Origin: Aphrocallistes beatrix
Taxonomy: Eukaryota; Porifera; Hexactinellida; Sceptrulophora; Aphrocallistidae
DNA: 64,000 nucleotides
Direction of reading: 5' to 3'
Assembly (NCBI GenBank): GCA_963281255.1
Contig: OY725500.1
Span: forward strand, 1,550,001 to 1,614,000
Shown here: in pieces, positions 4,484 to 64,000 of the stretch
How positions within the stretch are numbered: position 1 is the first letter of the stretch
Layout of the letters: every line of letters starts with the position of its first letter
The notes under the pieces: generated by a model
What the model was told of the DNA's origin: nothing
Databases searched by the model: none
Seen by the model: the letters and a program-made list of their open reading frames with translations, nothing else
Made by a program: the position numbers and the translations under genes

Positions 4484-5817
4484 CTAGGGCGTTCAATAAG
4501 TCTTGCGGGTCATGGTATATTTCGCAGACTATAATAGTAAACTAATCAGTTTTCATCTATAATACAACCTTATATCTTAGCTTGATTTACTGAAAATCTT
4601 AGCTTGATTGAATGAAAATTACAAATTTCTGATCAATTTATTCACACATCATTTCAACATACTGGTAAAATTATGGCTTCCAAGGATGACAATTTTAATC
4701 TGAAATGGAGAGCTTACATTGAGTTTCGCACAAAACTCCGCATCCAGCCGGTACTCATCTACAATGAGTTGCAGGAGGTATTTTGCATGGACTGCCCTTC
4801 CAGATCAACGGTTGAGCAATGGGCTGCACGATTTCAGTCTGGAAATACAGACGTGTCAGATCTACCTCGATCTGGGAGACCGGTGTCCGTCAGCACCCCA
4901 GAGAATGTTGCTCTAATCGAGAGCAAAGTCAGGGAAGATAAGTGTATAACAATCGAGCAGTTAGAGCAGAGTATGGAGATTTCTTCGGGGGCCATTCATT
5001 CCATTCTGACTACTCAGCTTGGTTTCCGATCCATTTGCGGTAAGTGGGTCCCACATAACCTCGGCGATCAACAAAAGCTCGCACGTGTAAAGACTGCCAA
5101 GAAACTCCTGGAAACCTATGACGGTTGTGATCCTAGACGCCTAGCTGAAGTTATAACCGGGGATGAGACTTGGGTCTATTATTCAACCCCTTACAGCAAG
5201 TATAAAATGCGATCATGGGTGAGAGGGGACGAAAGACCGACCCAAATTCCTAGGCCCGACTTCAGAAAACCGAAGGTCATGTACCCGATTTTCTTCAATA
5301 GTAGTGGAATAGTCTTGCAAATACCTTCTGAAAGTGGTAAAACAGTAAGCTCAACGTTTTTTACAGAGAAAGTACTTCCAAACCTAATCAAAAACGCGGA
5401 AGAGCTCCGAGCCAAGGCTAAAACGAGGGGAATAAAATTATTGATAGATAATGCTAGCTCCCATACAGCCAAGCTCACTAAAAATTTCTTGGAATCAGAG
5501 GGGTTAGATTTACTTCCCCACCCACCCTACTCACCAGACCTAGCTCCCTGTGATTTTTGGCTATTCCCCAAGCTCAAAATCTACCTTCAGGCAGGGAACT
5601 TGAGCCGAAACAAACCCTCGGGTCGGCCCTGTACCACTGCTTCAAATCCATCCCCGAAGAAGAGTACAGAAATGCATTCATAAAGTAGGTGGAAAGATTG
5701 AAACGCTGTGTAGAATTAGGAGGGGGGTATTTCGAATAAATAATACATTGAAACATATTCTATGACATTTATTTATTATTTTATGGTATGACCCGCAAGA
5801 CTTTTTGAATGCCCTAG
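4484..5817 (+). mobile_element. mariner element 1 (1,334 bp)
   Basis: Terminal inverted repeats start CTAGGGCGTTCAATAAGTC and end with the imperfect complement at 5784-5817. TA dinucleotides flank both sides (4482-4483, 5818-5819). It contains one decayed transposase gene on the + strand. The length equals that of mariner element 2 once the assembly duplication in that element is collapsed. Confidence 0.92.
4673..5740 (+). pseudogene. mariner transposase (DD34D), frameshifted
   Basis: The open frame runs from the ATG at 4673 for 336 codons. It has an N-terminal helix-turn-helix region, a GDETWVYY block with the first catalytic Asp, an IDNASSH block with the second, and SPDLAPCDFWLFPKLK with the third; 34 residues separate the second and third Asp, the mariner signature. 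Near 5592 the frame shifts. The expected C-terminus continues in another frame to about 5740 and contains a TAG at 5686 where family members have Trp. Both lesions suggest a dead copy. A remnant of the same transposase is at 14546-14625. Confidence 0.9.
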
Positions 5818-6043: not shown

Positions 6044-7396
6044 TTATGACATGACTGTAGACAATAAAAACCCTACTACCCTATTGTTACCAGTATCGGC
6101 TACAAATAGAGTGTTTTCTGAGTTGACACAAACTCCATGAGGACAATTGAATTTTCCATATTCATAGCCTTCTCCACCTAATTTCAAGCAATGCCCATCA
6201 CATCTGTTGAATACGAACACGCAACTCTGAATGACATCACTCAATATTAACTCCCCTGTTTGCCCTGAGCAGATGTCCCAAGTTCCAGCACTAAATCCTG
6301 AACATAAATTTTGGGATCCAATTTGTGAAATTAAATGTCCCTCCCAACCGTATAAGTTAATACAAGGATTTCCATGATGTAGTACTATGATATTCTTTTT
6401 ACTAGAGACTGTGATTGACTTGGGCCTCCGTAAATCTCCTGGCATTTCGCATGAGTGACCAATGAAATGTACGAATGTGTGTGTTTGATCTTCAGTTTCA
6501 TTTAACACCTGCAACCTGTTGTTACTCCATTCACAAACAAGCAATTTTTTATCGGAGTATGCGAGCCCCATTGGGTGTAGGAATTCTAACCTACCGAATC
6601 CGCTTTTTCCAATGGATAGTTTATAATTAAGGTTTTCTTTACCATAAGCCTGTATATAAGATAGATTACAGACTGATACGTATACCAGATCTTCAGAAAG
6701 AGCTAATCCCCCAAGTATTATCTCTTTATCTTTGCCCCCATGTATGGCAACAGTACACACGAGGGTTCCTTCCCGATCAAAGTATCCGAGCTCCTTATCA
6801 CGATCTTTACTTAAGAAATAGATATTATCTTCCTTGTCTGTCTTAATATGAATCGGTGCAAAAGAGTGACACACGTCGCTTTTGTTATGTGGCAACACTA
6901 TGAAAGGTTGTGGAGGGTCAGACTTGATTAGCACCAATTTCCCAGTGGATTTTAAGATGTACGAGAGATAGTCGTCCATTACCAGATGAATATCTCTGTA
7001 ATGGGAAAAATCTTGCAACTTTAAGTCTAAAACTTGACATCGAATTTTATCAAGATAAACATCCTTACCACTAACCTCAGTATCACTGTCCAGAGAAGTG
7101 ATTATATCAAAAGATCTTTCAAAATTTTGTTCTTTTAATTGATTTTCCAGATTACGTCTTAGTTTTTGATTCATTTCATTATGTTCAATGAACTCTTTTT
7201 CTAATTTCTCTATTTGTTTTAGCAACTGGAACTTTCTGTATTTCAAGCTAAGTATCATCTCTTCAAACTTCTTTTCTACTTCTTCTTTGAGCTGTTTTAC
7301 TGATTTCAAAAAATTTTCCTTCAACAATTCATCGTGGAGAGCCGATGGGAGACCAAATTGGCTAAAGCTCCGTTTTAACTTTGATTTCACAGACAT
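6044..7396 (-). CDS. Coiled-coil NHL-repeat protein (TRIM-NHL-like without RING/B-box)
   Basis: A single-exon minus-strand gene of about 450 codons. I chose the second in-frame Met (MSVKSKLKRS, 7396) because the 13 residues upstream are hydrophobic and unlike the charged N-terminus expected; the frame is open up to 7435. Residues ~20-90 are rich in Lys, Glu and Leu in a coiled-coil pattern (KQLKEEVEKKFEEM and following). The C-terminal ~250 residues carry NHL-type beta-propeller blades, e.g. LRRPKSITVSSKKNIIVL and NCPHGVCVNSENTLFVADTG near the end. RING and B-box zinc fingers of true TRIM-NHL proteins are absent. NHL propellers usually bind protein or RNA; the partner here is unknown. The frame is intact and likely functional. 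Confidence 0.8.
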   Translation of the reverse strand: MSVKSKLKRSFSQFGLPSALHDELLKENFLKSVKQLKEEVEKKFEEMILSLKYRKFQLLKQIEKLEKEFIEHNEMNQKLRRNLENQLKEQNFERSFDIITSLDSDTEVSGKDVYLDKIRCQVLDLKLQDFSHYRDIHLVMDDYLSYILKSTGKLVLIKSDPPQPFIVLPHNKSDVCHSFAPIHIKTDKEDNIYFLSKDRDKELGYFDREGTLVCTVAIHGGKDKEIILGGLALSEDLVYVSVCNLSYIQAYGKENLNYKLSIGKSGFGRLEFLHPMGLAYSDKKLLVCEWSNNRLQVLNETEDQTHTFVHFIGHSCEMPGDLRRPKSITVSSKKNIIVLHHGNPCINLYGWEGHLISQIGSQNLCSGFSAGTWDICSGQTGELILSDVIQSCVFVFNRCDGHCLKLGGEGYEYGKFNCPHGVCVNSENTLFVADTGNNRVVGFLLSTVMS

Positions 7397-7439
7397 TGAA
7401 AATATAAAAAGTATACTATTTAATAATTGGATCAATCAT

Positions 7440-10770: not shown

Positions 10771-11347
10771 TATATATGGTCAGGGGAGCCTGCTATAACA
10801 GCCACTCTGTATAGCGGTCGCCTGTACATAACGGTCATTTTTGTCCAATCTTACTGTATTAGGAAATAGGCTCCACTGCTTGGTAGGTGTGCTTTATTTA
10901 AAATTTGAATTGAAAGATCTTTAATTAATGAACAAATGATTTGATCACTTATATGCACTGTATATATTATTAATAAAAAATTCTAATTGGTTATCATAAA
11001 AAAATTTCCGAGTTTAGGCATTAGAAAATATGGCAACCCTTAATGCCGCACTATATTTTCACTATCTTTCTAGTGTAAAATTATTAAGTTTGCTCATTCC
11101 ATTAAGAATTATTAATTGTTGGTTATTGATGGTAACCTCACACACTAAGTTTTTCTAATCGCTAGACCGCGTGCATTCACATTTTTCAATTCCTCCCATA
11201 TTTTGTATTCCTATTATTAAAAGTGTGGGAATTCCCATCGGCAAAAAGGCTTGGAACCGCACATCTTATAACTATTGCATGCTCCTATATTGACCAATGT
11301 CACTTTTTTAAAACTTTAGCTTTTTCATATGTTCTGGAATTAGAACT
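10771..11347. other. Upstream region of the glycosyltransferase gene
   Basis: AT-rich intergenic DNA with no convincing TATA box. It presumably contains the promoter and 5' UTR of the gene starting at 11348. Confidence 0.3.
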
Positions 11348-13639
11348 ATGTGGAAATCCACTCTTCGAAAATACGGGCCCCCTCTCTGTTTAGTCGCTCT
11401 CTGTATTATCGTCCTCTCTCAACTTGCAGGCCCATTTAGTAATCAAGATGTTCCTAATTATAAGCGAGATTTTCGTGGTTCCATTTCAATTGACGTGAAT
11501 GTTCGAGTGACTGACGATAACAACAATGAACACATCTCGGAAGAGAACATTGAACAAGAACATAAAGAAATTTCAAACGCTACAGAAAATTCAGTGATAC
11601 CGTCAGATCGAGTTACTCCTCCCGAAGACGATGCCACTGAAGAATCTAAGATTATTTTCCCGAAAGATATGAATCCAGACATGCCACGACTGCCTCCTGA
11701 ACTTCCAGATGGGAATGCACAGGAGCAGAATAAGAACGATCCTATCTCTCTAAATCCAATTACCAAACCTGAATCTAGCTCTAGTGAGGACGATATTTTT
11801 GATCCGAATCTTCTGAATATCAGGGAGAAAGTTGTTAAAATTATTCGGAGTTCTGACTACAAAGATAAGTTCCAAAATCCTGACGGTGTCTACACGTCGC
11901 TTAAAGAGGATTATCCAATGCCCGAGATTACCAGTGAAATGATGGGTAAACTGAATGTGTACGTTTGGTGGGAATTTTGTTCGTTGTATGTGGAGGCTCT
12001 CAGAGGTCTCGCTGGGTTTCCGTACAACCCCCCAACTAAGCTCTACACGGACAAACTCTTTATCTCTCGCGGCGTTCAGGCTTACGGGCAACGAATATTT
12101 GGCTACATTATCCCTCCAAGGACAGGGCTCTACAGGTTCGCTATTTCCTCAGACGACTGCTCGGAGCTCTGGCTATCCTACGACCATGACCCGCGGCACT
12201 CGGAGAAGATAGCCTATCTCGGCTATTACGGGCAGAATATGATGAAGCTGTGGGCTTCTCCGGGCGAATTCACCAAGGATCAGAACCAGCAGTCTCTGCT
12301 CACAAGGCTGATCCAGGGCAAACCTTACTACATGGAGATTCTGCACGTGAATAGCGCAGGAGACGATCACGTGCAGGTATCCTGGCTCGTTCCCGGGAAT
12401 GTGGAGTACGAGGTCATCTCTTCAAACTGCATGGCTGCTTTCATCATTGATCCAGAAGATAAGATCGTAGCGGAGACTTACCACCCCAAGTTCGCCCTGC
12501 CAATGCATAACGAGCACCTCGTCACTACTGAATACTCGCGGAATGATAGAGAGGGATTCCTGAAACTCCCCTTCTTCCCGGCCAAATTCTTCGAGGGTAC
12601 TTTTTCCTCGTGTGAGTACGCGCCTAGCTTCGCTGTACCCCACGAGGTAAAGCGGTACATGGGAGTTTACGAGGTGAGACAGCTAAGCATTTATCCTAAC
12701 GACCAAACTGACGTAATGAATGTAGATGATAAGAGCTATGGGAACCCGTTGGTGGAGGAAAGTGAGGTGAATGCTGTACTGGATATTTTAACAAGAAAAA
12801 TCAAAGAGTCACTACCAGATGTCAAGTTAATGAGTCTGGTTAATTTTGAGAAATCAGAGGATCCTGCCAAGGGGACAAGATACCTGATCGAGTGTAAGAT
12901 TAAACTGAATGGAACATCCTCCAAAATATTTCGCATCTCAGAATATCTATACAGACAGAACGATGATCTAGATAACCTCTGCTACCCTATCGGATTGCGG
13001 TGGAGCAAAAAAACCTTTGTACATATTGTGATTACTGTAAAAAATCAAGGCAGGTGGATTCGGATATTCGTTGAAAATATGGAACGAATACAGGAAGAAA
13101 CCAAAGATGAGGATTTCGGTATTATTTTGATAGACTTTGACAGTACAGATATCGATTTAGAGGTTCTTCTGCGACAGAGTAAACTGAAGAATTGGATCCT
13201 CCTTCGAATGTCCGGTAGCTTCATCAAGGTGCAAGCTCAGAACGCCGCGATTGACATTGTTAAGAACCATAACGAGATCGTATTTACCTGTGACTTGCAC
13301 CTAGACATCCCCTCAGACCTGATAGAGGTGATCCGCAAACACACCTTTAAGGGACGCTCCGGGTACGCGCCCGCCTTAACGCGTCTACAGTGCGGACACA
13401 CAATACAGAACCCGCTCGGGTTCTGGGAGGTGCACGGCTACGGACTCTACTCCTTCTTCAAGCCAGACTGGATGATGATTTCAGGAATGAACACACAGGA
13501 CTTCTCCGACTCGTGGGGCGGGGAAGACTGGGACCTGGTGGACCGAGTCTTGTCTCATGGTTATGAGATAGAACGTTTAAAGCATAAGGGTCTCTACCAT
13601 TTCTACCATTCTCGCCATGGCATGTGGAATAATAATTAA
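11348..13639 (+). CDS. PA14-domain beta-1,4-N-acetylgalactosaminyltransferase, B4GALNT3/4-like
   Basis: A single-exon gene of 763 codons. Residues ~12-28 form a hydrophobic signal anchor (LCLVALCIIVLSQLAGP), giving a type II Golgi topology. An acidic low-complexity stem runs to ~190. A PA14 domain spans ~200-355 (SSDDCSELWLSYD, DDHVQVSWLVPG). A chondroitin-GalNAc-transferase-type catalytic domain lies at ~585-763 with ILIDFDS, a CDLH metal-site motif (~647), WGGEDWDLVDRVL (~723) and a C-terminal YHFYHSRHGMW. These features and their order match B4GALNT3/4, which add GalNAc to GlcNAc to make LacdiNAc. At 763 aa it is shorter than vertebrate B4GALNT3/4 (around 1,000 aa), mainly in the stem and middle. 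The start is the first ATG of the frame, with A at -3. The absence of introns contrasts with the plastin gene. Confidence 0.88.
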   Translation: MWKSTLRKYGPPLCLVALCIIVLSQLAGPFSNQDVPNYKRDFRGSISIDVNVRVTDDNNNEHISEENIEQEHKEISNATENSVIPSDRVTPPEDDATEESKIIFPKDMNPDMPRLPPELPDGNAQEQNKNDPISLNPITKPESSSSEDDIFDPNLLNIREKVVKIIRSSDYKDKFQNPDGVYTSLKEDYPMPEITSEMMGKLNVYVWWEFCSLYVEALRGLAGFPYNPPTKLYTDKLFISRGVQAYGQRIFGYIIPPRTGLYRFAISSDDCSELWLSYDHDPRHSEKIAYLGYYGQNMMKLWASPGEFTKDQNQQSLLTRLIQGKPYYMEILHVNSAGDDHVQVSWLVPGNVEYEVISSNCMAAFIIDPEDKIVAETYHPKFALPMHNEHLVTTEYSRNDREGFLKLPFFPAKFFEGTFSSCEYAPSFAVPHEVKRYMGVYEVRQLSIYPNDQTDVMNVDDKSYGNPLVEESEVNAVLDILTRKIKESLPDVKLMSLVNFEKSEDPAKGTRYLIECKIKLNGTSSKIFRISEYLYRQNDDLDNLCYPIGLRWSKKTFVHIVITVKNQGRWIRIFVENMERIQEETKDEDFGIILIDFDSTDIDLEVLLRQSKLKNWILLRMSGSFIKVQAQNAAIDIVKNHNEIVFTCDLHLDIPSDLIEVIRKHTFKGRSGYAPALTRLQCGHTIQNPLGFWEVHGYGLYSFFKPDWMMISGMNTQDFSDSWGGEDWDLVDRVLSHGYEIERLKHKGLYHFYHSRHGMWNNN

Positions 13640-41537: not shown

Positions 41538-43231
41538 GTATATATATATGGGTCATTCCATGTGAAATCGACCAATTCGACCAACTGTTCCATGTCGAGC
41601 ATCTCAGAAATTCTTGTAATTTTGCCTGTAGGTTTTGCATACTAGTGCATGATCATTTGTACAATATCAGCTTTCAATACCTTTTGGTTTTATAACTATA
41701 GCCATTTCAAAATTTGACGATTTTCATAGTTCGGACATTCTTGTTTTAGAGGCCCCTTAATCAAATGTGACATATATCTTTCAATTCTTAACTTAGATGT
41801 CCAGTTTTTTTTACTGGTTGTTAATCATATAGTTACCTAATATTCTTAGCTAAATTGGGTATTATTATTGCCTAGTTTAGATTTAATTCTTATCTAAACA
41901 TATATTTTCATCAATTTATCAAAAAAATTTCAAAATAATAATTCTTCATGTCTCCAATGGTTTAGAATTTGCCCATTTACTTTTTAATTTTGCTCTATAT
42001 ATGTACAATCTTCCTGGAAAAATTCATGGCTTACATCAATTCTTTTACTGTTAAATTCCAACCTATTTTAAATTATTCCAAATTTTAATTGTTATCAAAT
42101 TTTTCAAATTTTCCTGATGCCTACGAATGAATAACTCTGAAATAATTGATATTTGTTTCTATTTCTTAGTCCTACAATTATATAGATATACTTTCTCCAG
42201 TTGTGCGAATTGTAGTTGAAATTTGTGTGTGTTTTTATCACTTGTACTATATATTAGAAGTATTTGTACAAGTACTAATAATCTTCTTTTTTCCTAATAT
42301 TGTAAAACGATTATCTTCTTAATTTATTTAGTTATCGATATGTCTAGCTTTCTATTGACAAAATAATTAATATATTGTTCTGTTTATACACATAGCATGG
42401 CAACGTTTCGTTACCATCCAAAACTTGTCAAATGTGGTTTCTAATTCGGGATCAAATTTCATCTGCACAACTTTGCATATAATTAAGTATTGTAATAGTA
42501 ATCCATCTAAGGGTTCAGTTTATTTCGCATAGCATGGCAAGTTTATGTTGTTATGTAAAACTTGCCAAATACGGTTTCTATTTCGGGATCGAATTCCAGC
42601 TGCACTACTTTCCAGATAATGAATTAATTTTTATAGCAATCCAATTAATTTCATTGCTAAGTGAAATTTTTTAAATTCGTAAAGAAAATTTATCGAAGCA
42701 TTGATAGTACAACTTTTGACCTGGCTTTATAGTAAACTCATTTGTTGTTGGGATGATTTTGTTTAGAACGTCTGCTAATGAAGTATTCAGAGTTTTAAGG
42801 TATTTGTACTATTTTTTTGTTGTGCAACTGCCATGGGTCACAGCAAGCTAACTGACAACGGGACTACTTTGAGATATAAACTTGTTCATGATGAAGACAG
42901 ATTGTATCAATTTCTGGTGTAAAGATGTGACCAGCTCTGATCTCCAAAAGATGTATTGCATCATTATCGAGATCATATATTTTCTTAAGGCCTTGTTTTC
43001 TAACATATTTCGTTTTGTGACAATTTTCGTATAAAATTATACTACGGGCGTTCAATAAGTTCTGATGATTAAGAGATAACATGACTATATTGTACAAGTA
43101 CCATAATTCGCTCATAGAATATGTTTATTCTATCAATTACCTAAAAGTCAGTTTTTATTTCATCTTGATATTACATTTACTTATTGATTTACACATTATT
43201 TTGTAAAACCGATTTTGCATACTAATCAATT

Positions 43232-44314
43232 ATGGCGTCATCAAAGAAGAATTCTTATATTGAGCAGATATCATACGTTAAGATTCGTACTCTGCTCGGG
43301 AAATCTGCGCACGATATACATGTTGACTTGGTGCAAGTCTACAGTATGAAAGGTGCTCTATCTTATCCTGGAGTCAGACGATGGGCCCAGCGCTTTAGGG
43401 TAGGTAGAGAGTCTGTGGAAGATGACCCTCGGGCTGGAGCACCTGTTACGGCGGTTGTCCCCAAGTATTCCAGTGCTGTTAAGGAACTCGTTGATTCAGA
43501 TCCTCATATCACTGTTAAAGAGTTAGCTCATATTATTGGGATCTCAACGGGAAGTGTTGATCACATTCTGAAGTCAAAACTCAATCTATCAAAGGTTTGT
43601 GCCCGATGGGTCCCTCATTGCTTAACAAAGGCCCAAATGGCAACCAGGGTTAGATGTTGCCGAAACCTCTTAAAATTGTATAAAGGAGCTGACCCTCGCC
43701 GTTTATTTGAAGTAGTGACTGGTGATGAAACGTGGGTACAGTATAGCACACCTCTATCTAAAGAAGCGAACAAGGTGTGGAAGGAGAGTCACTCGGATCC
43801 ACCAATGATCCCTAGGCCCGATTTCAGGTCATCCAAGGTGATGTACTGTATATTCTTTGATGGATATGGCCCAGTTGCTCAGATAATAGTTCCAAAAGGA
43901 CAAACCATTACAGGGAATTTCTATACTAGCCAGTGTCTTCGTGAAGTTGAACAAAGACTTTTTAAACGAAGACCTAGTACGCGAGCAAAGGGGTTAAAAT
44001 TATTGCACGATAATGCCCGCCCTCACAAAACCAAGCAGGTCAAAGCCAAAATTGCAAGCATGGGGATGGTTGAGCTTGAGCATCCACCCTACAGTCCAGA
44101 CCTAGCTCCTTGTGACTTTTATTTATTCCCGAAGCTAAAAGAGTACCTTTCTGGCCGCCATTTCGACACAAATGCAGCACTGGGTTCGGCGATTTTCCAG
44201 TATCTAAACCTTATACCTCCAGAGGACTATAAAAAAGTATTTGAACAATGGTTAGAACGTTTACAACGCTGTATCAATAATCGTGGGGAGTATTTTGAAA
44301 AAATAAAACATTAA
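43232..44314 (+). CDS. mariner transposase, intact (360 aa, DD34D)
   Basis: An uninterrupted 360-codon frame from ATG to TAA, the normal mariner size. The N-terminal half has paired helix-turn-helix segments (VKELAHIIGISTGSVDHILK). The catalytic core has VTGDETWVQYSTP (first Asp), LLHDNARPHKTK (second Asp) and YSPDLAPCDFYLFPKLKEYL (third Asp), with 34 residues between the second and third. WVPHCL also matches the family. It cuts and pastes its own element at TA sites. No key residue is missing, so it may be active or recently so, in contrast to the decayed mariner 1. Confidence 0.93.
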   Translation: MASSKKNSYIEQISYVKIRTLLGKSAHDIHVDLVQVYSMKGALSYPGVRRWAQRFRVGRESVEDDPRAGAPVTAVVPKYSSAVKELVDSDPHITVKELAHIIGISTGSVDHILKSKLNLSKVCARWVPHCLTKAQMATRVRCCRNLLKLYKGADPRRLFEVVTGDETWVQYSTPLSKEANKVWKESHSDPPMIPRPDFRSSKVMYCIFFDGYGPVAQIIVPKGQTITGNFYTSQCLREVEQRLFKRRPSTRAKGLKLLHDNARPHKTKQVKAKIASMGMVELEHPPYSPDLAPCDFYLFPKLKEYLSGRHFDTNAALGSAIFQYLNLIPPEDYKKVFEQWLERLQRCINNRGEYFEKIKH

Positions 44315-53613: not shown

Positions 53614-54322
53614 CCCCCCACAGGTGTAATATTTGGAAGATAAAATGGGAAAAATTCCCAACGTAGATGAGCATTTATGTTAGCTATTTTGGACAATATG
53701 GAATAAGAATTCGTGATTCTTTAACCTCTGTGACGTCCAAAAATTTTTTTTTTCGCAAAAATAGCCCGCCTGTCCGGAAAAAATATTTTTTTTAAAAAAA
53801 TTCCTAAAAAATATTTTAGCTGTACTTGTCAAATATTACCATTCACAGATTTATATTACACTATTTTTGGTGCAAATATCTTCTTTGTTTGATTTAATTT
53901 TGCATTAATTTAAACTAAAAATACACATTTATTGGATAATGCCAAATTTATTCTCTGTCAGTCAGAGTATAATTTCTGCATGTCATTGCAATTTTATTCA
54001 CTTTGACAATTCTCTATGCCTATGTTCTAAAACTGATTTTATTGAAATAATGAGTTTAAGTAATTAACCGTTGGGTAACGCTATGTTATAGTATGCTCGT
54101 GCTTAGCCAACGGTTGGCTGATACTACTTCTGTATTCTAATACTAACCATAAAATTATATTCTGATAACATAAAAATACAAATATGAGTAAGATTTTAAG
54201 ACTTCTTCATTGCATGCTATTTGGCTGTCTTGCTAATCTATTGTTATTATGTAGGAACCATATACATACCATTTCTATATAAGTGTCACAAAAATTTAAT
54301 TCTTTATTCATTTTTCAGTAAC

Positions 54323-56577
54323 ATGTCTTCTTCATTATTAATACCAGATAATCTCTTGAATATTTGGGATGATTACCATGTGGATTCACTGTACAAAGTA
54401 TGCCGTTTTTGTTATATCCGCTTATCGCCAAAAGATTTGCCTAAGAAAAATTTGCGACAGCCTCCTACTAATCTAGTGATTGACAGAGCCTATAAGTTTT
54501 ACAACATAGATCTTCGCGCTGAAATAATTGATCTCTTTAAGCCAAAGGTATTTTGTTGTAGTTGTAGATCTCGGTTATCAGACTTAGAAAGTGGCAAACT
54601 TAACATACATAAATGGCTTTCCGATAGATCTATTATTGAATCCAACCTAAATGTCGAAATTCCATGTAACATTACTCGGAAGGCGATTCTTTGTGTCCCT
54701 ACAGATCGATGCCATCTATGCAAAATATACTCGTCCTCCATGAATAATCATCTCTCAAAACTCAAGACACAAGGCCCTAATCCTGGTAGGCCTTTAGAAC
54801 AATCTCCTGTCAGATTAATGTGCAGCAAGTGTGGAATGTCTACTGATGTTCATGATATCGACTTTTGCAAACAAGTTATGAAACGCCCACAATCTTCTCG
54901 GCAGGCTGGAAAACACTTCGCAGAAAGGGTAGAGTCTCGTGGATACACTGAAAATCTCACTACTAACTTCCTGGTAAGTAGTCTCGAAGGTTCAGTTAGC
55001 GACAATAGCCTTATTACACCATTTAATGCCCTATAATTACGTCATCCATTCGATTCGAATAATCAATTAGCTGTGGCTACAATTCCGTATAAGAGTGCAA
55101 AACAAAATATTAGTAATCACGTTTTAAGCAGAGAGGCAGTCCGAGATATGCAGAAGTTAGGTCACCTTGGTTTGGGGAAAAAGTCGTATTTTGAGCTGGG
55201 TAGAATTCTTCGCAAAGAAGGAATCCATTTTCCCACGGGGGGAATAAAAGGAGCATGGGATGAAAAATGGTCAATATTTGGAGAAATATTTACTTCACTA
55301 TCCATCAAAATGATCCGTTCAGAAACACAAAACTTTGAACTGGTTCCAATGGGAATTTGTACCGATGTTGAAAGATTATTAAATATAATCACATATAAAC
55401 AATCGAACAGAATTTCGAGACTTAAAGTACAATTGGATGGCGGTAAACAATTCCTCAAGCTATCTGTCAATATAGTTTCAATGCTTCCGAATAGAGCAAA
55501 TCCTAATAGCGTTCTTTCCAACTTTGTAATCGCGATGGGTCACGCATCCGAAAATTCAGAAAACTTGCGCTCATTACTAAATTTAACATCTATTCGAAAC
55601 ATCTTTAACTTGGATATTCCGATCCAAATTGCATGCGATTTTAAGTGGCTGCTATGCTCGTTGGAATTCAGCAAGCATCCAGCAAGCATCCTTGCCCATT
55701 TTGTATATGGCGGAAGAATACAAAATGTACCGGAACACCTCTTCGTGCAAGAAGGTATAAGGAATTAATTAAGGATTTTCATTCAAAAACTAATAGCGTA
55801 TCTCATGAACCAATTATCAAGTGGTCAGATTCACCTATGGAAATACTTGCTCTTGCTCCTCTCCATATACTTCTTGGTCTCGTCAATCGGTTGTATGGTG
55901 TAGCTAGGCCATCTCAGAATGCGACTAACCGATATGATCGTTTACTGTATAAACAACATTGTCAAGCTTTGCAAAGATGCAAAGTATATCGATCTGAGTA
56001 CTGGGATGGCGCTCTAGAAGGTAACTCTTGCTCTCGACTTTTGGATAATTTAGATATTATACCATTCCCTAGCCATCACACCTCCTTGTTAAACGCCCTA
56101 AAATCATTAAAGATGGTAAAAGACAGGTGTTTGGGTCTTTTAAGAAAGCCTGGTTGGGAAGAGAGTATTTGTCTATTCAGAGAATCATGGGATGCAACCG
56201 GTTTACCTTGGTCATTAAAATCGCATATACTTTCCGACCATTATATGGAATACTTCTTCCATTATGAACCTCAATTAACAGCAGGGGCAGCAATAAGTTC
56301 AGAGCAGAGCGGAGAGATGCTACATTCCAGAATACAAAATCTTTGGGATCTTAGATTTAAGACCAAGTTAGAGCACGAGCTATACCCACAGAGATTGGTT
56401 GATTGTATGGTGACATATAATTATAATTTACGGTGGGATAATGCAGAGAGGCTTTCTAAAGAACAGGGGAAAATATTCACTGATACTTGCAGCGACTGTC
56501 ATGATGAAGAAAGTGATATAGAGAGGGTAGAACTTCATAATTGGGACACAGATGAAGAATCTTCTGATATTGATTAA
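54323..56577 (+). pseudogene. Zinc-rich DDE-type transposase with RAG1 N-terminal-like region
   Basis: Reads from MSSSLLIPDN (54323) to TAA at 56575-56577, ~750 codons, broken by an in-frame TAA at 55034-55036 and a one-base frameshift near 55645. N-terminal order: VCRFC, then FYNIDLRAEIIDL, VFCCSC, DRCHLC, a GPNPGRP basic turn, LMCSKC and DIDFC. This CxxC / ID-R / C..C / CxxC layout resembles the RAG1 N-terminal region. The catalytic-like part has LKVQLDGGKQFLKL (first Asp?), IACDFK (second Asp?) followed by HPCPFC, LHILLGLVNRL, and SSEQSGEMLHSRIQ (Glu?). An acidic tail ends it. The RAG1 link is from remembered family layout, not a search; other zinc-rich DDE families are possible. Confidence 0.6.
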
Positions 56578-56994
56578 CAAAATTCTTAATTACTTAAGTA
56601 TATAAGTACATAATACGTAGTATAGATAGGTAAGTTATTGAAATGACTTGCAAATTTAACTGAAATAAGTAAATTTTAGGTTTGGTTATCTACTATATAA
56701 TTAAATAGAATGCTATTTGTCTGCTTCTCTGTGTTGTTTGTCTGATTTGGAGATTGAATTATGGTATATTAACTACTGTAAATATACAAGATTAATAAAA
56801 ACTTTCTAGAAATTAATTCTTCAGCTAGTATAATTACCAAAGTAAAGAATTCAACATTACATTTCTCATTTGAAGGGTCTATTATGAAATACACTAATTT
56901 AAAAAAGTATACTAAAAATAGTTAAATTAATTTGTTGTGGAGTGAACGAACCAAAAGCTCATATTTTTCATATGTAAATATTACGGGAAATAAA
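56578..56994. other. 3' interior of the RAG-like element
   Basis: Non-coding AT-rich DNA between the stop codon and the right inverted repeat. Confidence 0.5.
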
Positions 56995-57284
56995 TTCGGC
57001 AATATCCAATAAATAGGCATTTTAGTTTAAAATTTTTGCCAATATATAATCAAACAAAGAAGATATTTGCACCAAAAATAGAGTATTATAAATCTGTGAA
57101 TGGGAATATTTGACAAGTACAGCTAAAATATTTTTGAGGAATTTTTTATAAAAAAAAGAATTACGATTTCTTATTCCATATTGTCCAAAATAGCTAACAT
57201 AAATGCTCATCTACGTTGGGAATTTTTCCCATTTTATCTTCCAAATATTACACCCGTGCCCCCTCTCACCAATTACGTATTTTA

Positions 57285-60239: not shown

Positions 60240-61770
60240 AGGCTTGGGATACACAGCTGTGTATGTAATCTTGGTCAAACGGATGCTGTTCTTCCTGTCT
60301 TCAATGTAAAGTGCATCTATGTCTTTCCAACGTGCTATGTGTGATTTGCCATCTTTTGTGAATGCGAGTTCCTTATGAGGTACAGTTATCCAGTTATTCC
60401 TAATGTTTTTGAATAAATGGACAGTCATAAACGAGAAAAACATGAGAGTTTAAAATGTCTATAAACACTCTACCAGGTCCACCTAATTTAGCATAGACGG
60501 AGACATTTGTATTGCAATTGTCACATATACACGAAATTGTAGTGTCACCAGCATTGCTAACTGCTGCTAGAGCTTCGAGTAATATATCCTTGAGTTGATC
60601 TGAATTGCGTTTCGCGACAGGATGAATACGTAGAATATATTTAGGGCCACCAAAATGGCATACAACCTCGATCACTAAAGCATGTGTTGCGAGAACTTCA
60701 GCGTCACCAGACCCATTTTGAGCATACCCAACATGACCACCAGAGTATCTAAGAGTTTCTGTTAGCTTCACTTCATCAAATAAAATGTTTACAAGACGCT
60801 GCTGGGGTTGAAGCTCTTGAAGAAGTTGCCTCAAGTTTTCATCATGTAGACTATTAGAAATAAGTTTCTTCAACAGTTCTACTCGAGGTAATGCAATAGC
60901 ACCAGATTTTCCTAGCATTCTATACGCAGCTGGTGAAATGTTATGAAGTTCAGCAGCAAAAACATAAAGATTTCTATACAAACGACGGCCTTTTGGTGCA
61001 GTAAGTAACAAACCTAGCTGAGCATACAAACATTGATAATGGGGAAGTTCAGAGCAATTCATACGACTCAATTCCTCAAGGGCACTTTTCAGGTAATCTG
61101 TGTCTTTGAATTCATACTCTGGAATACTATTTTAAATGCTATTGAATTGTGACCATTTGCTGATGAGGCTGTTCTTATGTAGGAAACCAGCTTCGGAAAA
61201 ATACGATTTAGGTATTTCCTTTCCATTTTTCTCAACACATTTAAGAAATAAAAATCCAAATGGTGATTTCGCATGTGGTAAGTGTAGAAACTGGACGACT
61301 GAACGTCCTTGTGTATCAGTTTTGGAAATGTAAACATCATCACCATCAAGAATAATAAGATGATTTTGGGAGAAACGCTGTTGGATGACTGTGTAACAAA
61401 AGGAATCAAAGTCACCAATTTTATCAAGAGCGTTAGTTCTAAGCTCTTCATTTCTGGCACGTGTTTCTGCCGAAGAACTTGTATTTCTAGGGGTTGAAGA
61501 GACTTGCTTTAAACATGACTGTGGGACATCAGGAAAAATGGATGGCGGTTGGCTAGGTCGTTTACCACCTTTAACTGTGACCCATTCACAGTCAAAATGA
61601 TGGACGCAAGCATAGATTTGTTTAAGTTGTAACAGACTGGAGCGCTCATTTGGCATAGCATCAATCCAACGATTTCGCTCCACTCCATCACTTGGAAATG
61701 GTACTACTTTTGTGTAAGATTCACCCCTGTAATTTCCACGACAACTATATACGTTACACTTCTTAGGCAT
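60240..61770 (-). pseudogene. P-element THAP transposase, N-terminal and catalytic part
   Basis: The start is MPKKCNVYSC (61770). A THAP zinc finger follows: C5, C10, W35, C55, H58, then a SIFPDVP block like the AVPTIF end. Frameshifts occur near 61130 and 60427. The catalytic part has NILFDEVKLTETLRYSGGHV (first Asp), ICDNCNTNVSVYAKLGG (second Asp) and, in the next frame, VHLFKNIRNNWITVPHK. The gene is cut at 60239 by the GTCCAG element and continues at 52949. THAP binds the element ends; the P-type core catalyses transposition with GTP as cofactor in known members. This copy is dead. Confidence 0.88.
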
Positions 61771-61907
61771 TATGAAGTTAAACCAACACCACCAAGCTAC
61801 AAACCTGAAAAAAAAATCATAATACAGCAGCACATGAGGTAAGGACAGCGTCAGTTGGCGCCAGGAACGGCAAAAAAAGCAAAAACTTTCCATGATCTGC
61901 CATTTTC

Positions 61908-61935
61908 GTGACACAACGACGTCGTTGCGTCACGA
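61908..61935. promoter_or_regulatory. 28-bp near-perfect palindrome in the P-element end
   Basis: CGTGACACAACGAC is followed at once by GTCGTTGCGTCACG, one mismatch pair only, between the P TIR and its transposase start. It could be a THAP-protein site or an operator-like element; function is unproven. Confidence 0.5.
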
Positions 61936-62003: not shown

Positions 62004-64000
62004 TATCCAGATGAACCCACTTCTTCCGATACCCCGGACGTCGTTCCCCGATATTCCCTCCTCTCCCTTTTGAGATGAGCAATTTGACGTCTGGCCCTTT
62101 CCTATCCAACACTTTGTATGGTCCATTATATCTCGAGTCAAGTGCATCGTGTCTAGCAGTGGTTCAGGAGCATTACTTCATCGCCCACTTGTATCTCAGA
62201 GCTTGTTCTCCCTTTATTATGATATTATCGAGCTCTACCTAGGCTTGACGCTATATTCTCCTCCGCTATGGCCTTCAGTTCGGCTTTCCTCTTTTTTCAA
62301 GTCGTGCAGTGGTCTACAAATCCTCGAAATTCCGTGCCATCTAACTGTGATCCCTGATCCGTAACTACAATCTCGGGTACTCCATGCCCTTGATATATCC
62401 ACCTCTTTTCAAACGCGATAACCACGCTTTCATAAGTTTGATCGTGAAGGGGGACTATCTCAATCAACCTAGGAAACAGGTCGACCATCAAGAGAAAGTA
62501 TTGGAATTCACCGTCTGCCCAGGGGAGTGTACCAATATCAACCCCGACAGCAGCTCCAGGATAATCTTTTCCCAATACCATCCAATGGGCTGCTTCGGCC
62601 GGTTCGACGGCTTCGAACGTTGACAAACAACGCAGATGCGACAAAACTGCTTTGTGTCTCGTGCCATTTTAGCCCAAAAAATATCTTCCTCAAAGCATGA
62701 AGGGTTCCGGCTCGTCCTAAATGGGCCTGGCCTGTCGGTGAACTTCTTCGAGAATTTCATTCTGCAACACCTTGGGTACCACTAAGCGATCGTCGAAGTA
62801 CAAAGCATTCCCTTCCAATCTCATATGCCTAGTTGCCCGTTTGAGTTGGCCCTCCTGAATGGACCCCCTGATTGGAGCTAGTTGACTTCTCGTTGAATCA
62901 TTGGGTTTTGTCTATGTTTGTCCAGGATTCGACCTCGCATCCCCTTCGGTTCTTCGAATACGTATACCTTGTTCTCAATGGAGTCTTCATCATTTACTCG
63001 AGTGTCATACTCTAGCTTAGGAACCCGGCTGAGATAATCGGCGGTGTTATTTTGGGCTCCTGGACGGTACTCGACTCAGTGTGGCAACCCCTTCAGTTCG
63101 AGAATCCAACGCGGATATGTGTGGCGAGGATCTCTTTGCCTCCTGAGCCACTGGAGGGACCAGTGATCAGTGACAAAAACTACTTCTGATGCACCACTTA
63201 TGTATACCGCCCATTTCCGTGCAGCCGCCACCAGAGCCCACGCCTCTGATTGCCCCGCACTGTAGTTTTTCTGCGAATCACTTAGAGCTGATGAATGGTA
63301 ACGAATAGGAAGAAGTTTTCCCGTGTTCATGTCATTCTGAGAAAGAACTGCTGCAATTCCTGACGTGCTAGCGTCTGATTCAACGTAGAAAGTTTCGGAC
63401 CAGTCTGGAAATGTCAGCACAATCGGCTCGCTGATCAACTTCCCTCTTTGCTCTTTGAATGCTCTATTACAACCTTCATCCCATTCCCAGCGAATTTCCT
63501 TCTTCTTTAGTCTGTATAGAAGCGCCGCGATTTCAGCCATGTGAGGAATATAGTCTCGATAGTAATTTATCGTCCCAAGAAATCGTTGCTCATGTACCCT
63601 CTCTGGTAGAGGAAATGAAGCTATCTTCTCCAAATACGATTTGTAGGTTCCCTCCCTTGTGATGTAATCAAATATCCCAAGAATTCGCATTCGAAATTCA
63701 GGAAGTGACATTTATCTCTCGGAGTTGGATGTTTGCATCAGTGAGCCGTTGGATTACCTCCTGTAGTCTGTTGATATGTTCTTCGAACGTTCTCGAATAG
63801 ATAGCATTCCACCCCACTCACCTCCTATGCATCGGTCGATCAGTCTTTGGAAGGTAGCGCCCCCGTTTACCATGCTAAATAGCATGACCAGCATCTCATA
63901 TAACCCTTTGGGAGTGTAGAAAGCCATTCTGGGGATATCATCTCTCGCATGGGAACGAACCAATAGGCGCTCGCGACGTTGAGGCAGGAATAGTGGCGAC
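62004..64000 (-). pseudogene. Gypsy (Ty3-like) pol: RT, RNase H, integrase, frameshifted
   Basis: From the window edge leftwards on the minus strand come several pol blocks. RT is at 63963-63710 (MAFYTPKGLYEMLVMLFSMV, NGGATFQRLIDR). The RT thumb and RNase H are at 63711-63076 (FLGTINYYRDYIPHM, FYVESDASTSGIAAVLSQND, VFVTDHWSLQWLRR). An integrase zinc finger is at ~62690-62620 (FCRICVVCQRSKP). The integrase core is at 62577-62297 (GVDIGTLPW, IVVTDQGSQLDGTEF). A C-terminal remnant (LDTMHLTRDIMDHTKCWIGK) runs to 62012. Several frame changes make it defective. It is interrupted by the P element; the tail is at 51185-51617. The 5' part lies beyond the window. Confidence 0.88.

Follow-up and report, generated by a model that had tools for sequence, protein, structure and literature searches.

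A defective, probably Chapaev-like DNA transposon with a RAG1-type predicted core in a glass sponge

Introduction

Does an early-branching animal carry a RAG1-like transposon? The question is raised by an element in a 64,000-nucleotide stretch of DNA presented as that of the sponge Aphrocallistes beatrix (contig OY725500.1, positions 1,550,001 to 1,614,000; the whole stretch is hereafter the window). A first-pass annotation, made from the letters alone, had read positions 53614–57263 as a candidate RAG/Transib-like transposon with long terminal inverted repeats (TIRs) and a 5-bp target-site duplication (TSD), an element that could represent a RAG1-like lineage if the host were a sponge. The analysis reported here points elsewhere: the locus is most likely a dead copy of a DNA transposon of the cut-and-paste kind, a member of the CMCT clade (CACTA/EnSpm, Mirage, Chapaev and Transib), best filed as Chapaev-like. 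By membership the element is probably neither RAG1-like nor a Transib, although its catalytic core probably works like one.

Structure and copies of the element

The transposon proper occupies positions 53619–57258 on the plus strand (3,640 bp), has CAC...GTG ends and contains a single transposase gene; the span first proposed does hold a transposon but takes in the flanking runs of C. The left inverted end begins CACAGGTG and the right one CACGGGTG. The left TIR (53619–53952, plus strand) and the right TIR (56989–57258, minus strand) are made of three complementary blocks: 104 nt (97%; arms 53619–53722 and 57155–57258), 117 nt (92%; 53786–53902 and 57040–57156), and 54 nt (78%; 53899–53952 and 56989–57042). 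These blocks, together with matches at other genomic loci, bear out the inverted, CAC-starting ends with long arms noted at the outset. In the host genome (100.5 Mb in 28 contigs, with the window on contig C14), the 104-nt end has at least 40 scored matches of 81–100% identity, many of them in facing pairs, so the inverted ends are not a product of chance pairing.

Twenty of these loci were taken: eleven (L031–L041) with both termini recognisable, one (L042) without the left terminus, and eight (L043–L050) treated as single-ended. Including the window, there are thus 12 copies with both ends recognisable. The search for intact copies recommended by the first-pass annotation was rewarded with two open ones, L033 (frame of 754 aa) and L034 (753 aa), which differ by 12 synonymous and 18 non-synonymous changes; the corresponding pN/pS (non-synonymous over synonymous) of 0.41 hints weakly at past selection on the protein. 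A second family, about 55% identical at the protein level, has ten elements that bear the end CACGGGTGTAATATTT; in one of them, L053, whose protein is identical to the database protein P0003, the TIRs reach about 860 bp. Altogether, the sponge has at least three divergent families, 55–66% identical, with open frames. Another copy of the second family, L054 (G000:C20:224763-229271), has an open frame of 1,108 aa in the stretch taken. The frame opens with a long series of in-frame eight-residue repeats (TQLVVERA/P type), which apparently arose by tandem expansion of a short piece of the transposase itself.

Length of the target-site duplication

CCCCC is indeed present on both sides of the window element, but its reading as a 5-bp TSD has not stood up to comparison with other copies. 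When the window and L031–L041 were scored together, exact flank repeats of 4 bp were found in nine of the 12 copies and of 5 bp in the window alone, where both sides are runs of C; no flank repeat was seen in L034, L036 and L041. When the right flanks were shuffled 20,000 times, nine exact 4-bp matches were never reached. In the second family, six of the nine elements with readable ends have a 4-bp repeat and none a 5-bp one, and a single shuffle in 20,000 attains six matches at 4 bp.

The target into which the window element inserted is a repeat with further copies in the genome. The closest empty site, L098 on contig C1, reads CACT-CCCCCC-TTTCACC, while in the window a run of five C stands on either side of the element; ten C in the window less six in the empty site imply that 4 bp were added. 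Since a run of C can slip, L098 backs a 4-bp TSD at the window without proving it. A more distant empty site (L099 on contig C6; CACT-CACC-TCTCACC) fits neither 4 nor 5 bp without further change. Given the other copies and L098, the TSD is taken to be CCCC, at 53615–53618 on the left and 57259–57262 on the right, with the fifth flanking C counted as part of the original target site. TSDs other than 5 bp in other copies had been named in advance as the observation that would tell against a RAG/Transib assignment; both families have them, and L098 agrees.

The transposase gene

The single cysteine-rich gene of about 750 codons with Asp-Asp-Glu (DDE) blocks was read correctly at the outset: one such coding region extends over 54323–56577 on the plus strand, and the full motif set D, D, C(2)C, LH, H(4)H, E is present. 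Positions of the catalytic residues and motifs in the window were read through alignment to protein P0001. The N-terminal part (54323–55033; 237 codons) bears four C-x2-C pairs and is ended by a stop at 55034–55036. The middle part (55037–55644) includes the first and second catalytic Asp (55436–55438 and 55637–55639), and the C-terminal part, in another frame (55645–56574), includes C(2)C (55693–55704), LH, H(4)H (56224–56241), and the catalytic Glu (56302–56304), with a stop at 56575–56577. Besides the early stop, the gene has a frame change near 55640–55645, adjoining the second catalytic Asp, and an in-frame loss relative to the open copies. Judged from these lesions, the window copy is dead and cannot make transposase; as its gene is broken, the enzyme would have to come in trans.

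The element was also said to be without RAG2, and this agrees with the open reading frames examined, among which no second coding frame of RAG2-like size lies within the element. A genome-wide search for RAG2 gave no match, but its positive controls were likewise undetected, so that the result does not show RAG2 to be absent from the genome.

Sequence searches and predicted fold

The translated and profile searches that the first-pass annotation had called for provided no match to RAG1 or Transib. Neither was found by Pfam with the three transposase pieces of the window, by a PDB sequence search with two of the three, or by profiles and Pfam with the homologues, and no Pfam family covers the transposase in the window pieces or the homologues. 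At the level of fold, all 22 Foldseek matches of the predicted core at E ≤ 0.001 are RAG1; the comparison used a model of middling quality for the sister-family protein P0003, and the predicted core resembles the RAG1/Transib type.

The cysteine-rich N-terminus gave only weak alignments with typed RAG1, in two mutually inconsistent registers, and an open PDB sequence search with this region returned no RAG1 despite RAG1 chains of 1,040 residues in the set. It shows weak zinc-finger resemblances, zf-AD/ZAD among them, and a RAG1-like N-terminus is not established. For Chapaev, PMC4411706 places a Chapa zinc domain at the N-terminus.

Transib-like genes do exist in this genome, at other loci. 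The Pfam RAG1 model gave three matches below cut-off elsewhere, two of which were taken: L096 (G000:C2:5041448-5044621) and L097 (G000:C14:2916952-2919861) are Transib-like transposase fragments that match HzTransib by phmmer (E 6e-10 and 6e-14, respectively) and also match RAG1 near the catalytic Glu, with Pfam RAG1 scores just under the cut-off. The window family does not match either fragment (best tblastn E 4.3). Since a Transib elsewhere in the genome is recognisable by the same means, the window element is not a Transib, and the two fragments are a better RAG/Transib lead in sponges.

Host and relatives

That the host is a sponge was confirmed from its mitochondrial contig (C28, L051), on which cox1 was identified by Pfam and cox2 and nad3 by reading of the frames. 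The genes read best with AGA as Ser and TGA as Trp, and cox1 then looks normal. Among the best 120 of 7,999 cox1 candidates, the top named matches are Aphrocallistes vastus (92%) and A. beatrix (88%), followed by Rossellidae, Vazella, Sympagella and Docosaccus (85–87%), Oopsacas (80%) and Lophophysema (78%), with further named rows at 73% or less. As the best named matches are all glass sponges, the host is a member of the Hexactinellida and an early-branching animal.

Protein searches with the transposase yielded 15 and 28 proteins, or 32 in all once the query is set aside. The 11 named relatives all belong to Perkinsus marinus, P. chesapeaki or P. olseni (39–53% identity), and the remaining 21 are 'ena' proteins, of which one is identical to a locus in this genome. 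No Chapaev protein is named among the matches; as the searches scored the 7,991 candidates sharing most words, further relatives may exist and the missing Chapaev matches mean little. A midpoint-rooted tree was built from 21 rows, excluding P0033 and 12 of the 21 'ena' rows; a single split (100/100 support) parts ten Perkinsus rows from eleven sponge or 'ena' rows, several long rows being placed less surely.

Weighing of the alternative readings

The closest competitor to a Chapaev-like filing is that the element belongs to a separate, so far unnamed CMCT lineage, distinct from both Chapaev and Transib, common to glass sponges and Perkinsus-like protists and marked by its own 4-bp duplications. 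The restriction of the named relatives to Perkinsus, the lack of a covering Pfam family and the single fully supported split all argue for it; the termini, TSD length and motifs, however, lie inside the Chapaev description given in PMC4079192, and the absence of Chapaev matches, for the reason stated, carries little weight, so that this reading is tentative and distinctly the less probable. A sharper form, in which a RAG1-fold lineage with 4-bp staggers, shared by glass sponges and Perkinsus, branches near the Chapaev/Transib split, is somewhat more doubtful still. If it were true, the union of a cysteine-rich module with a RAG1-type core would predate the animal RAG line, and a transposon of this build would have crossed between protists and animals.

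The element as first read, RAG1-like or Transib with 5-bp duplications, has in its favour the CAC ends, the CCCCC on both sides of the window copy and the RAG1-like predicted core, and it is this core that survives of the proposed lineage. Membership does not: TSDs of RAGL and Transib elements are 5 bp (PMC7204232), and the assignment fails because two families and the closest empty site point to 4-bp TSDs and because no RAG1/Transib sequence match was found, whereas the genome's own Transib-like genes do match HzTransib. It is now very improbable, and the idea that the element passed recently between the sponge and a Perkinsus-like parasite is, if anything, even more so. Perkinsus stands alone among the named relatives, which would suit such a transfer, but the sponge and Perkinsus rows are not interleaved and have long branches; the clean split and the three or more divergent sponge families indicate an old separation, and any transfer would be old.

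Proposed mechanism and significance

Transib elements cleave DNA by a nick-hairpin route, and the RAG1 core holds a structural zinc by residues of the C(2)C/H(4)H type. In the Chapaev-like element, the transposase would bind both TIRs, with the cysteine-rich N-terminal zinc module probably helping to bind TIR DNA or to pair subunits, while C(2)C and H(4)H would coordinate a structural zinc within the core. By family resemblance, the DDE core would cut at the CAC ends and free the element through a nick-hairpin step, as described for RAG in PMC7204232; the freed element would then be joined to the two target strands staggered by 4 bp. The window copy would move, if at all, only with transposase from open copies elsewhere in the genome.

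A Chapaev-like transposon is an ordinary kind of thing; here it occurs in a host that has seldom been studied, and its kinship with protists is unusual. The finding adds multi-family, apparently recently mobile RAG1-fold transposons, with open frames and clear target duplications, to an early-branching animal, and ties a sponge transposon group to an alveolate lineage. It may serve as an outgroup for testing which RAG1 parts (core, zinc modules, 5-bp stagger) are shared with related transposons. It also removes a false lead, as the element does not pass as RAG1/Transib and the Transib-like genes of the sponge lie elsewhere.

Other features of the window

Two mariner-type transposase frames lie on the plus strand, at 4616–5680 (Transposase_1, DDE_3) and 43226–44311 (Transposase_1, DDE_3, HTH_48), some of these Pfam matches falling under the cut-off. 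On the minus strand, P-element-like pieces (60403–61929) consist of a THAP domain frame adjoining a TNP-like RNase H frame, and retroelement pieces (62300–63711) bear integrase core and RT RNase H domains. A 775-codon open frame on the plus strand (11312–13636), with PA14 and chondroitin N-acetylgalactosaminyltransferase-type domains, is probably a host glycosyltransferase gene, and a 463-codon open frame on the minus strand (6047–7435) has an NHL repeat at its end.

Comparison with known systems

According to PMC4079192, Chapaev elements (CMC group) are characterised by 5′-CAC...GTG-3′ termini, a 3- to 4-bp TSD and a DDE core carrying the motifs C(2)C, LH and H(4)H. The sponge element has CAC...GTG termini, a 4-bp TSD and a core with all three motifs, which occur in other CMCT groups too; it differs in its long TIRs (about 270–330 bp, and about 860 bp in the sister family), and its probable filing follows the published description. 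For the CMCT clade as a whole, PMC12730594 gives C(2)C and H(3-4)H motifs located between the second D and E, CA..TG ends and a 2–5 bp TSD; the element agrees in motifs, ends and TSD length, and its predicted core fold is of the RAG1/Transib type.

With Transib and RAG1/RAG1L (HzTransib, BbRAGL, RAG1), the element shares the predicted core fold, TIRs starting with CAC, and a spacing of 19 between the second D and C(2)C; it differs in its TSD (4 bp against their 5 bp), in having no detectable sequence match to them and in that no RAG2-like gene was seen within it. The likeness to N-RAG-TP, a group covered in the review PMC8355894 and compared by description only as given in the first-pass annotation, lies in a cysteine-rich region within a transposon. 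The uncharacterised Perkinsus proteins, compared as proteins alone, come from alveolate protists, not animals, and apart from P0005 most of the named ones are partial; in P0005 (Pmar_PMAR020401), which covers 96% of the query, the catalytic motifs and their spacings are the same as in the sponge transposase.
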